From Campylobacterota bacterium (GTDB lineage: Bacteria > Campylobacterota > Campylobacteria > Campylobacterales > Sulfurimonadaceae): a stretch of DNA of 37,149 nucleotides. Positions within the stretch are counted from its first letter, which is position 1. Each line of letters begins with the position of its first letter. Below the pieces are notes generated by a model. It ran no database searches, was not told where the DNA came from, and worked only from the letters and a program-made list of their open reading frames with translations. Both the position numbers and the translations under genes were made by a program. The stretch is taken from the NCBI GenBank assembly GCA_023379705.1, contig JAMCPS010000097.1, positions 1 to 37,149 of the forward strand. The letters are read 5' to 3'. Positions 32,154 to 33,640 of this stretch are shown here, in pieces.

Positions 32154-32624
32154 ATGTTTAATATAGTCCTTGTAAATCCGCAAATTCCTAATAATACCGG
32201 AGCAATTGGTCGCTTGTGTGTAAATACGGGAGCAACATTGCATCTTGTTAAACCTCTTGGCTTTGATATCAGCGAAAAAGCGGTTCGAAGATCAGGATTG
32301 GATTATTGGCATAAAATTGATTTAAAAGTATGGGAAAATCTGGAAGATTTTTTTGATTCCGTTCAAAAAAGTGACCGGTTTTTTTATGCAACAACCAAAA
32401 CGGATAAACCTTATTTTGAGTTTAAATTTCAAGAAGGAGACTATCTCTTTTTTGGCAGTGAAACAGCAGGTTTGCCTGCTGATTTATTGGCTAAGTTTCC
32501 GCAGCAATGCATAACTATACCGATGACCAAAGAGGGACGAAGTCTTAATCTTGCCATTAGTACGGGAATTATACTTTATGAAGCAATTAAGCAAAACTTC
32601 ACAGGCTACAAGGAAACAATGTGA
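32154..32624 (+). CDS. trmL: tRNA (cytidine(34)-2'-O)-methyltransferase
   Basis: The 156-residue SPOUT methylase has NIVLVNPQIPNNTGAIGR, FGSETAGLP and MTKEGRSLNLAIST, which form the knotted AdoMet site. It methylates the wobble ribose in tRNA(Leu). It begins 3 bases after purU. The stop overlaps the GTG of a 41-residue membrane protein (GTGA). Confidence 0.93.
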   Translation: MFNIVLVNPQIPNNTGAIGRLCVNTGATLHLVKPLGFDISEKAVRRSGLDYWHKIDLKVWENLEDFFDSVQKSDRFFYATTKTDKPYFEFKFQEGDYLFFGSETAGLPADLLAKFPQQCITIPMTKEGRSLNLAISTGIILYEAIKQNFTGYKETM

Positions 32625-32746
32625 TCTTTCAAATTTTTGATACGCTCATGATTATTGGATTGATCCTTTTTCTCATTTTCATTTTTAGAGGCTATCATCT
32701 TTCACGAATCGATCACTTTGAAAAAGAAGACTCTACTTCTAATTAA
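32621..32746 (+). CDS. 41-residue single-span membrane protein
   Basis: A short frame starts at GTG 32621, overlapping the trmL stop by four bases (GTGA), with AAGGAAAC 5 bases upstream, and ends at TAA 32744-32746. It encodes an N-terminal hydrophobic segment (DTLMIIGLILFLIFIFRG region) and a short charged tail (HFEKEDSTSN). The coupling and ribosome site support translation. Function is unknown; a small regulatory or assembly subunit is a guess. It overlaps the stop of the minus-strand micro-ORF at 32743. Confidence 0.65.
   Translation: MIFQIFDTLMIIGLILFLIFIFRGYHLSRIDHFEKEDSTSN
32725..32740 (-). terminator. Weak terminator-like hairpin after the micro-ORF
   Basis: On the minus strand, AGAAG and CTTCT (complement of 32740-32736 and 32729-32725) form a 5-bp stem followed by a T run. 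It lies just past the micro-ORF stop, inside the 41-residue ORF on the other strand. Confidence 0.3.
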
Positions 32747-32826
32747 AATATTTTTTTTGCCCAAATTTCCATTTTCTCTTCGAAACGATTCATAATTGTA
32801 TTTGCTTTTTTGATTACGTGTGCCAT
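32743..32826 (-). CDS. 27-residue micro-ORF divergent from the S24 repressor
   Basis: ATG at 32826 has TAGGAG 7 bases upstream, an unusually good ribosome site, and the frame runs 27 codons to TAA 32743-32745. The peptide begins MAHVIKKANTIMNRFEEK and ends EIWAKKIF; it is basic and can form an amphipathic helix, without a membrane span. Both the perfect palindrome and an imperfect copy lie upstream, between it and the repressor gene, so it is probably the repressed gene. Translation is not shown; the site quality is the main evidence. No function assigned. Confidence 0.5.
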   Translation of the reverse strand: MAHVIKKANTIMNRFEEKMEIWAKKIF

Positions 32827-32892
32827 TTTGTACTCCTAATTTGCTTTATAAGCTTTTGAATTGACAAATAGTAATTAATTATTAACTTTACC

Positions 32893-32898
32893 ATTATA
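32893..32898 (-). promoter_or_regulatory. -10 element of the micro-ORF promoter, overlapping the operator
   Basis: The minus strand reads TATAAT at this place, overlapping the left end of the palindrome by three bases. The transcript would have a leader of about 60 bases. Repressor binding at the palindrome should block it. Confidence 0.45.
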
Positions 32899-32922
32899 AA
32901 TATGTCAAATTGACATATTTAT
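32896..32922. promoter_or_regulatory. 27-bp perfect inverted repeat, probable S24 repressor operator
   Basis: Arms of 13 bases (ATAAATATGTCAA and its exact complement) flank a single central A at 32909. A weaker copy, with the core TTGAATTGACA matching 9 of 11 bases of TCAAATTGACA, is centred about 49 bases away near 32860. The palindrome contains TTGACA on each strand and lies 59 bases before the repressor ATG, positions typical of an autoregulatory operator. Confidence 0.7.
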
Positions 32923-32934
32923 TGAAATATATGC

Positions 32935-32940
32935 CATAAT
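32935..32940 (+). promoter_or_regulatory. Possible -10 of the S24 repressor gene
   Basis: TGC-CATAAT lies 41 bases before the ATG; TTGACA in the right arm of the palindrome is 19 bases upstream. Spacing is slightly long, so the -35 assignment is tentative. Confidence 0.4.
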
Positions 32941-32980
32941 ACATACAATATCACACTCAATTAAAACATGGAGAGGCACA

Positions 32981-33640
32981 ATGAAAAGTTTTTTTGAAAT
33001 AGTCGAAACGATCAAAGACATCGTTTCGGGTGAATTTCCTGAAAAAAAAGTATTCGATAAAGACGTGGCGGAGTTATTGGAAATAACGCAAATGAATTTT
33101 GCAACAATGAAAAAGCGTAATAAAATTCCTTTTAATGAATTACTCGATTTTTGTGCAAAACGTTCTATTGCGATCAATTGGATTCTTTACAATCAATCTC
33201 CCGAAAGTTTGATCGAACCGACCAATCGCTTTTATATGGTACGGTATTTCTCTTCGGTCAGTGCCTCCGCAGGTGGGGGCGCAGAAAATGATGAGTTGGA
33301 TTATGAGCCGTTGATGCTCGAAGAGAATTTTGTACTCTCTTTGGGCGGAGAGAGTGAACTACGAAATATTGAAGCTATTAATGTGTCAGGCGATTCGATG
33401 GAACCTTCTTTTAGTTATAACGATATTGTTTTTATAAATCGTGCGAAGAAAGAGGTAAGCCGTGGAGGTGTATTTACCATACGAACCGAATATGGACTAT
33501 TTATCAAAAGAGTACAAGTGAGAATTGATGGTAAACTTGATATTATTTCGGACAATAAAGACTACCCAACCTATGTCGCACAGCGCAATGAAGTAGAGAT
33601 CATTGGGCGTGTCGTCGGGCGTTTTGGCGGTGTTGAGTAA
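32981..33640 (+). CDS. S24-family (CI/LexA-like) transcriptional repressor
   Basis: The 219-residue protein has an N-terminal helix-turn-helix of the phage CI type (VFDKDVAELLEITQMNFATMKKRNKIP in parts, residues ~24-65) and a C-terminal S24 peptidase domain: GDSMEP with Ser139, and LFIKRV with Lys176 as the Ser/Lys dyad. An Ala97-Gly98 bond in SVSASAGGGAEN is a likely self-cleavage site. It should repress from a palindrome and be inactivated by RecA-stimulated autocleavage, as for the family. GGAGAGG precedes the ATG. It is followed after 25 bases by a C40 peptidase gene. A true LexA is not implied; the HTH differs. Confidence 0.85.
   Translation: MKSFFEIVETIKDIVSGEFPEKKVFDKDVAELLEITQMNFATMKKRNKIPFNELLDFCAKRSIAINWILYNQSPESLIEPTNRFYMVRYFSSVSASAGGGAENDELDYEPLMLEENFVLSLGGESELRNIEAINVSGDSMEPSFSYNDIVFINRAKKEVSRGGVFTIRTEYGLFIKRVQVRIDGKLDIISDNKDYPTYVAQRNEVEIIGRVVGRFGGVE

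Follow-up and report, generated by a model that had tools for sequence, protein, structure and literature searches.

What does a cleavable repressor of the S24 type do in a bacterium without a classical LexA, when a perfect palindrome lies between its gene and a divergent open reading frame (ORF) of only 27 codons? The question is raised by 37,149 nt of a Campylobacterota bacterium (assembly GCA_023379705.1, contig JAMCPS010000097.1, forward strand), a stretch referred to as a whole as the window, whose closest named relatives belong to Sulfuricurvum (97-98% identity). Helicobacter pylori and Campylobacter jejuni have been reported to lack lexA, and in H. pylori DNA damage has been described as linked to competence genes in a RecA-dependent manner, with repair genes reported not to be induced (PMC2912397). 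An earlier note on the window had proposed a resident, damage-responsive unit that stands alone and controls a tiny peptide.

The Divergent Locus

The S24 repressor gene is an ORF of 219 amino acids on the plus strand (32981-33640), and the micropeptide gene, recognized by its conservation, pN/pS and profile match, occupies 32743-32826 on the minus strand with 27 codons (MAHVIKKANTIMNRFEEKMEIWAKKIF) and a TAGGAG ribosome-binding site. The two are separated by a gap of 154 bp (32827-32980), just as the earlier note had laid them out. Its 27-bp palindrome is also real, spanning 32896-32922 without a strand of its own, with arms ATAAATATGTCAA-A-TTGACATATTTAT in a 13+1+13 arrangement that are 100% complementary. 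Inside this palindrome lies a 19-bp operator core (ATATGTCAAATTGACATAT, 32900-32918), the proposed SOS box of the lineage.

A Pfam scan of the window ORFs found housekeeping-type genes around the repressor, and among all 42 non-overlapping ORFs of at least 90 amino acids there was no integrase or phage family match but that of the repressor itself, in agreement with the earlier reading of a locus without neighboring phage genes. Eight of 38 of these 42 ORFs had no match at E 1e-8, and Rfam returned no match at 32600-33100. A 41-aa ORF with a single hydrophobic stretch (32621-32746, plus strand) is convergent with the micropeptide gene and overlaps its stop codon; the C-terminal end of this ORF seems, by eye, to be conserved in several genus loci.

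A Phage-Type Repressor Encoded by a Core Gene

The repressor is made up of an N-terminal HTH region (residues ~1-72), all-helical in the structure model, a linker and a C-terminal S24/LexA protease domain (~86-219). This S24 domain has both an Ala-Gly bond and a Ser/Lys dyad, as had been noted before: the predicted self-cleavage bond Ala97-Gly98 (codons at 33269-33274) and the catalytic residues Ser139 (33395-33397) and Lys176 (33506-33508), all on the plus strand, are invariant in 108 of 108 repressor homologues. A sequence search of solved structures returned nothing at E 0.01, whereas a fold search with the predicted structure matched the C-terminal domain to LexA and lambda CI, including RecA-bound entries. 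Judged by sequence models the repressor is not a canonical LexA by family, with no match at E 1 to PF01726, the winged-helix LexA DNA-binding domain, and 20.4 bits for TIGR00498 against a cut-off of 110.95, in the C-terminal part only.

The combination of a CI-type HTH with an S24 domain is that of a prophage CI repressor. The locus could be a domesticated or remnant prophage switch, in which a phage CI repressor would serve a local lysogeny-type decision and the micropeptide would be Cro- or antirepressor-like. The best full-length Foldseek matches are indeed lambda/186 repressors (rank 1 being a lambda-186 hybrid), the PHROG repressor family is matched at E 1.8e-29, and identity to the repressors of seven Helicobacter/Campylobacter (pro)phage records is 28-33%; Pfam Phage_CI_repr reached 17.4 bits, under its cut-off of 22.

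The distribution of the gene speaks against such a switch. Repressor matches were present in 122 of 150 genomes of relatives of Sulfuricurvum and were strong in 114 (E 4e-40 or better); weak matches (E no better than 2e-24) were those of G097, G100, G103, G110, G115, G118, G121, and G135, and eight of the genomes without a repressor match (G126, G127, G132, G133, G134, G140, G146, and G147) were identified by elimination. Repressor identity tracks RecA identity (Spearman 0.90, 61 genomes), and with its housekeeping neighbors the gene has the character of a chromosomal core gene and not of a mobile one, which bears out the resident, non-phage unit of the earlier note. We set the prophage remnant aside because the repressor is a core gene and the scanned ORFs hold no phage family; nothing in the window places the gene in a prophage whose lytic genes the repressor would control, and the operators before recA, dprA, comM, and repair genes described below also argue against it. 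A prophage switch is thus highly improbable: phage ancestry of the repressor is likely, a present phage function is not. Two more S24 domains occur in the same genome (G000:C143:17473-17781 and G000:C175:9000-9254), the second near a transposase-like ORF and an operator-like site.

The earlier statement that a classical LexA is lacking also holds, with no PF01726 match in the genome itself and a weak match in four of the 150 genomes, one of them above the cut-off. Five drafts without a repressor match (G005, G008, G032, G060, and G070; 57-91% complete) have the recA operator, and draft incompleteness is the likely cause of the missing repressor in these genus and family genomes. G115 (L394; 99% complete, family f7) has a weak S24 match, yet it carries a recA operator and six exact genomic operators, and either loss of the repressor or a gap in the draft is possible. 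Family f9 was taken as Arcobacteraceae because its identities and operators resemble those of named Arcobacter loci.

The Predicted Operator

Alignment of the repressor/micropeptide gaps gave the operator consensus ATATKDCAWWWTGHMATAT, which is matched exactly by 61 of 80 family gaps and within two mismatches by 78. The palindrome is beyond chance: searched exactly in one orientation, the 19-bp core consensus had 181 matches in 59 of 90 genomes, compared with 0 for a reversed control pattern. The window's own genome has the exact operator three times, once in the gap described here and twice ahead of recA, these two being 28 bp from each other, with looser matches before comM/yifB, dprA, and a cytosine methylase. 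From its position and co-occurrence we propose that this predicted operator is bound by the S24 repressor.

The imperfect copy that had been placed about 49 bp from the palindrome is present, with AATTGACAAAT at 32859-32869 against AATTGACATAT at 32908, but it amounts to a half-site and was rejected as a second full operator. The stretch recurs as TAGGCAAATAGTA in many relatives (gap alignment, by eye), which gives a promoter -10 (TACTAT, minus strand) the same likelihood here as a second operator. The corresponding element TTGACAAATAGTA (32861-32873, no strand) may be an operator half-site, the putative -10 of the micropeptide promoter, or both. The exact -10 and -35 positions assigned earlier stay tentative: a promoter scan of 32700-33050 gave two matches, compared with a shuffle mean of 2.3. 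Three order-level loci with a divergent polymerase (L099, L114, and L118) have AATTAACAAATTGTTAATT-like dyads in the gap before the repressor, and these may be a diverged operator.

Predicted Operators Before recA and Other Genes

The operator matrix was trained solely on repressor/micropeptide gaps and then applied upstream of recA, where a site of at least 14.4 bits was found in 30 of 30 genus loci (scored without shuffles) and a second box of at least 18 bits, 28 or 29 bp away, in 22 of the 30; the loci of named relatives overlap the genomes used for training and are not independent of it. With 100 dinucleotide shuffles of each region, 18 of 19 genus loci scored above all 100 (L178 was equalled by 1/100), the test having taken in 19 of the 30 recA loci, with 11 unparsed. 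Across the family, 44 of 46 regions exceeded 100/100 shuffles, L301 and L317 being the failures. At order level the signal is divided. Where the genome has a strong repressor match, every shuffle was beaten in 10 of 29 regions and not in 19, the set leaving out G145 (partial recA) and G148 (no recA match); every f9 genome (four) and every f7 genome (three) is among the ten, and two of the ten (L360 and L362) score only ~6 bits. L356, with 17 bits, was equalled by 1/100 shuffles. Where there is no repressor match (18) or a weak one (6), a single region of 24 beat all shuffles, that of G115; G101, G119, G121, and G135 were left out of these 24, and also left out of the recA regions were G067 (not fetched) and G078 (L296, at 72 bases too short).

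Two further genes of the genus have predicted operators upstream. The 30 best loci were taken for each, and L432 (incomplete) was dropped. In 29 of 29 assessable dprA loci of the genus the highest-scoring site falls at -71 to -80, and in 21 of them it has at least 12 bits; comM loci attain this score in 22 of 30; the background at 12 bits was seven matches in 238,560 positions, taken from the last 3 kb of 80 named loci. Six comM loci have no site within 200 bp, and three of these genomes (G009, G012, and G017) carry an exact operator ~0.5 kb upstream. One genome of the family, G051, has 17 exact operators, including those before recA, its own repressor, RuvB, RadC, and a RecD2-type helicase, and further ones before a Pol-IV-like protein, Dam, an RlmI-like methyltransferase, restriction-modification-like genes, and others. 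In G098, of family f9, recA and a Pol-IV-like gene are each preceded by an operator.

At order level, 15 of 30 loci have a gene for a Y-family polymerase next to the repressor gene and divergent from it. A good matrix site is absent from 12 of these 15, and therefore the operator there, if any, differs. The genus Y-polymerase genes, among L395-L424, carry only degenerate operator cores (TGTCAATCTGACA or TGCATTCTGCCATAT), in many cases near -64, which suggests weak or altered boxes. Separately, similar-looking CxxC proteins with an operator upstream occur in two families (118 aa at L202:2088-2441 in G051 and 116 aa at L210:2123-2470 in G116); neither has a Pfam match, and they are possibly a new SOS gene.

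The same operator thus stands before recA, dprA, and comM and, in relatives, before ruvB, radC, recD2, and Y-family polymerases. The idea that the repressor controls nothing beyond the tiny peptide has to be abandoned, and on account of these operators the protein has the look of a genome-wide SOS regulator. As for the responsiveness to DNA damage that the earlier note had ascribed to the unit, we infer it.

The Micropeptide

The note had taken the micro-ORF for a real gene, and of the 78 family loci that can be assessed, 75 have an ORF of 26-28 codons beside the repressor; these 78 are the 80 family loci minus L045 and L057, which run into contig ends. These 75 comprise 68 parsed 27-aa ORFs together with L063, L065, L067, L069, L068, L089, and L056; L068 (28 aa) was included by position and size only, with an HMM E of 1.7. 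The exceptions are L047 and L048, without a micropeptide, and L090, with a 21-aa ORF only. Conservation of palindrome and micro-ORF beside homologous repressors, whose absence the note had named as fatal to its proposal, is seen in 78 of 80 gaps and 75 of 78 loci, respectively, and on this point the proposal stands. In two groups cut by identity rather than by tree, pN/pS was 0.22 (n = 9) and 0.26 (n = 24), and third codon positions accounted for 268 of 418 differences in the first group and 2869 of 5500 in the second; taken together, the 68 aligned 27-mers gave a pN/pS of 0.51, with synonymous sites saturated. Sequence evolution of this kind indicates that the micro-ORF is a genuine gene under purifying selection. 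Were it untranslated and conserved as a transcript or as DNA, for which its mere 27 codons might speak, neither the low pN/pS and third-position bias nor the near-fixed length, the ribosome-binding sites and the empty Rfam search would be expected, and we give this reading next to no credence.

By sequence the micropeptide is a charged amphipathic helix with a mean hydrophobicity near zero. The helical hydrophobic moment falls in the top 5% of shuffles for 68 of 68 micropeptides, and there is hardly any variation at Ala8, Glu16, Ala23 and a pair of hydrophobic residues at the C-terminal end. The micropeptide matched nothing in Pfam or NCBIfam above the cut-offs and nothing in PHROG below E 0.08, 27 residues being too short to exclude a distant relation to DdrR, DinI or other known small SOS proteins. 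A type I toxin was set aside since the peptide is not hydrophobic (antitoxin RNA was sought in Rfam only), and a beta-clamp-binding motif at the C-terminus was set aside since the conserved Gln is absent (by eye).

A whole-genome profile search gave the micropeptide at E 5.6e-14; over 90 genomes it was found in 49 at E 0.01 (G102 being doubtful), adjoining the repressor wherever coordinates were compared. In other families the family HMM matched ORFs in the same divergent place in L108 (E 1.4e-4), L110 (2.4e-4), L100 (0.009), and L095 (0.036), among 3216 ORFs. Stray copies were also seen in G035 (L496, 27 aa), G051 (L497, 27 aa), and G013 (L498, 31 aa). Their surroundings resemble plasmids or phages, with genes identified by eye as ParA, a tyrosine recombinase or a DNA methylase nearby and no operator of 8 bits; one micropeptide searched against plasmids had no match.

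Small partners of SOS repressors and of RecA are of several kinds: GIL01 gp7 is of the corepressor/antirepressor type, DinI and PsiB are RecA modulators, and YneA is a membrane-anchored division inhibitor. Within an SOS system the micropeptide could regulate the response, either as an S24 corepressor or antirepressor like DdrR and GIL01 gp7 or as a RecA modulator like DinI and PsiB. Its pairing with the repressor in the family loci would suit this role, as would the stray copies on plasmid-like elements adjoining parA and the precedent of ddrR, described as divergent from the S24 gene umuDAb with both -35 elements overlapping the binding site (PMC7273328). Three of the four f9 genomes and some named Arcobacter loci, on the other hand, keep the repressor and the recA operators with no micropeptide detected, and we offer response regulation as a tentative possibility.

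The micropeptide might instead be an accessory to a translesion polymerase. An ORF of similar size sits between the repressor and a Y-polymerase in three loci, with a TAATG stop-start overlap with the polymerase in L106, 5 nt from it in L102 and ~80 nt from it in L105. None of these ORFs is significant with the family HMM, so that homology rests on position, size and C-terminus, and within the family of the window the micropeptide gene has no polymerase gene after it; such a role is rather doubtful.

The arrangement of a small gene divergent from an SOS repressor at a shared operator is also that of SOS cell-division inhibitors of the YneA/SosA kind, divergent from lexA, and the micropeptide could act like these or like the tiny SidA. 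SidA is described as membrane-anchored (PMC6851548), against a charged amphipathic helix here, and the similar ORF is coupled to a Y-polymerase in other loci, which makes an inhibitor of division unlikely. The position beside the repressor fits modulator, translesion accessory and division inhibitor alike, while the Y-polymerase coupling elsewhere and the stray mobile copies lead us to lean toward a modulator of RecA or the repressor, or a translesion accessory, over a division inhibitor. Overall, the micropeptide is probably an SOS-induced modulator.

Proposed Mechanism and Implications

Because the operator precedes recA, dprA, comM and, in relatives, the genes for repair and translesion synthesis named above, the set of predicted sites has the anatomy of an SOS regulon. 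The genomic evidence makes it very probable that SOS control in this lineage lies with the S24 protein as master repressor, a non-canonical LexA whose DNA-binding domain is of the phage CI type, and that the micropeptide is an SOS-induced effector. The conservation of the genes, the operator, the regulon, the catalytic residues and the coding selection were all observed computationally, and to these the proposed mechanism would add DNA binding by the repressor, induction by damage and the action of the micropeptide.

In undamaged cells, repressor dimers would occupy the 19-bp palindromic operator and shut off their own gene and the divergent micropeptide gene, along with recA, dprA, and comM and, depending on the lineage, ruvB, radC, recD2, and Y-family polymerases. 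Upon DNA damage, RecA-ssDNA filaments would stimulate the repressor to cut itself at Ala97-Gly98 through Ser139/Lys176, lifting repression of the whole regulon, the repressor and micropeptide genes included. We infer this RecA-triggered cleavage and derepression from catalytic residues that do not vary, a fold shared with LexA, and a regulon of recA and repair genes, with LexA, UmuDAb, and the Bacteroidetes regulators as the analogy. The micropeptide would then, as an amphipathic helix, most likely bind and tune a protein of the response, be it RecA, the repressor or a Y-polymerase complex.

On a larger scale, we cautiously favor the view that the Campylobacterota have their own lineage of phage-derived SOS regulators that replace LexA and date from a deep ancestor of the order, and that the 27-residue helical partner represents an SOS effector of a new class that targets RecA, the repressor or a translesion polymerase and was picked up alone by mobile elements. 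If the S24 protein is indeed the SOS repressor, many members of the order hold a conventional SOS regulon under an unrecognized repressor, lost or rewired in others, and a single operator with a single repressor would allow DNA damage sensing in these bacteria to be tested directly. The repressor would be another phage-type protein acting as a host SOS switch, with a bearing on the origin of LexA. The micropeptide, with its near-fixed length across the family, makes a convenient target to which a defined function could be assigned.

Comparison With Known Systems

In the open-access literature we found no description of an SOS regulator for Sulfurimonas, Arcobacter/Aliarcobacter or Campylobacterota generally. 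The accessible portions of the Arcobacter butzleri genome paper (PMC2147049) make no mention of SOS, LexA, umuC, recA or a repressor, nor is the system described in those of PMC12710356, PMC11424552, PMC10092268, PMC2734928, and PMC7092418. The damage response reported for H. pylori (PMC2912397) offers a likeness within the phylum through its link to competence, as here dprA and comM share the predicted box of recA.

Unlike the CI repressors of phages 186 and lambda (PDB 7jvt, 2fjr, and 3bdn), the S24 repressor is encoded by a core chromosomal gene and has predicted operators at host repair genes. In the lexA-sosA and lexA-yneA pairs of Firmicutes the repressor is a canonical LexA and the inhibitors are membrane proteins. 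Those pairs resemble the present locus in that a small gene of the SOS response is transcribed away from the repressor gene, SosA being given as 77 aa compared with the 27 aa of the micropeptide (PMC6851548). The UmuDAb/DdrR system of Acinetobacter, as described in PMC7273328, is similar in that an S24 repressor in a LexA-less genus shares a binding site with a small divergent protein; it differs in that UmuDAb is a homologue of UmuD and DdrR has 78-81 aa against 27.

The nearest precedent is the non-canonical LexA of Bacteroidetes, going by the account in PMC8565304, which proposes that such repressors be named LexA by function, as the chromosomal repressor of a canonical SOS network. The present repressor, with predicted sites before its own gene, recA, and repair and translesion genes, fits the genomic side of that definition, and we would file it as a LexA-type SOS regulator by function, predicted from sequence, and not as a canonical LexA by family. 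The Bacteroidetes regulators are backed by binding experiments (PMC8565304); the Campylobacterota system is predicted from sequence. In both cases a phylum thought to be free of LexA has a chromosomal S24 repressor with a lambda-CI-like HTH and a motif of fixed spacing, and the Bacteroidetes regulon likewise takes in recA, dinB, radC, and others (PMC8565304). The system described here differs in its phylum and its operator, in the presence of dprA and comM in the predicted regulon, and in the conserved micropeptide that stands divergent from the repressor.
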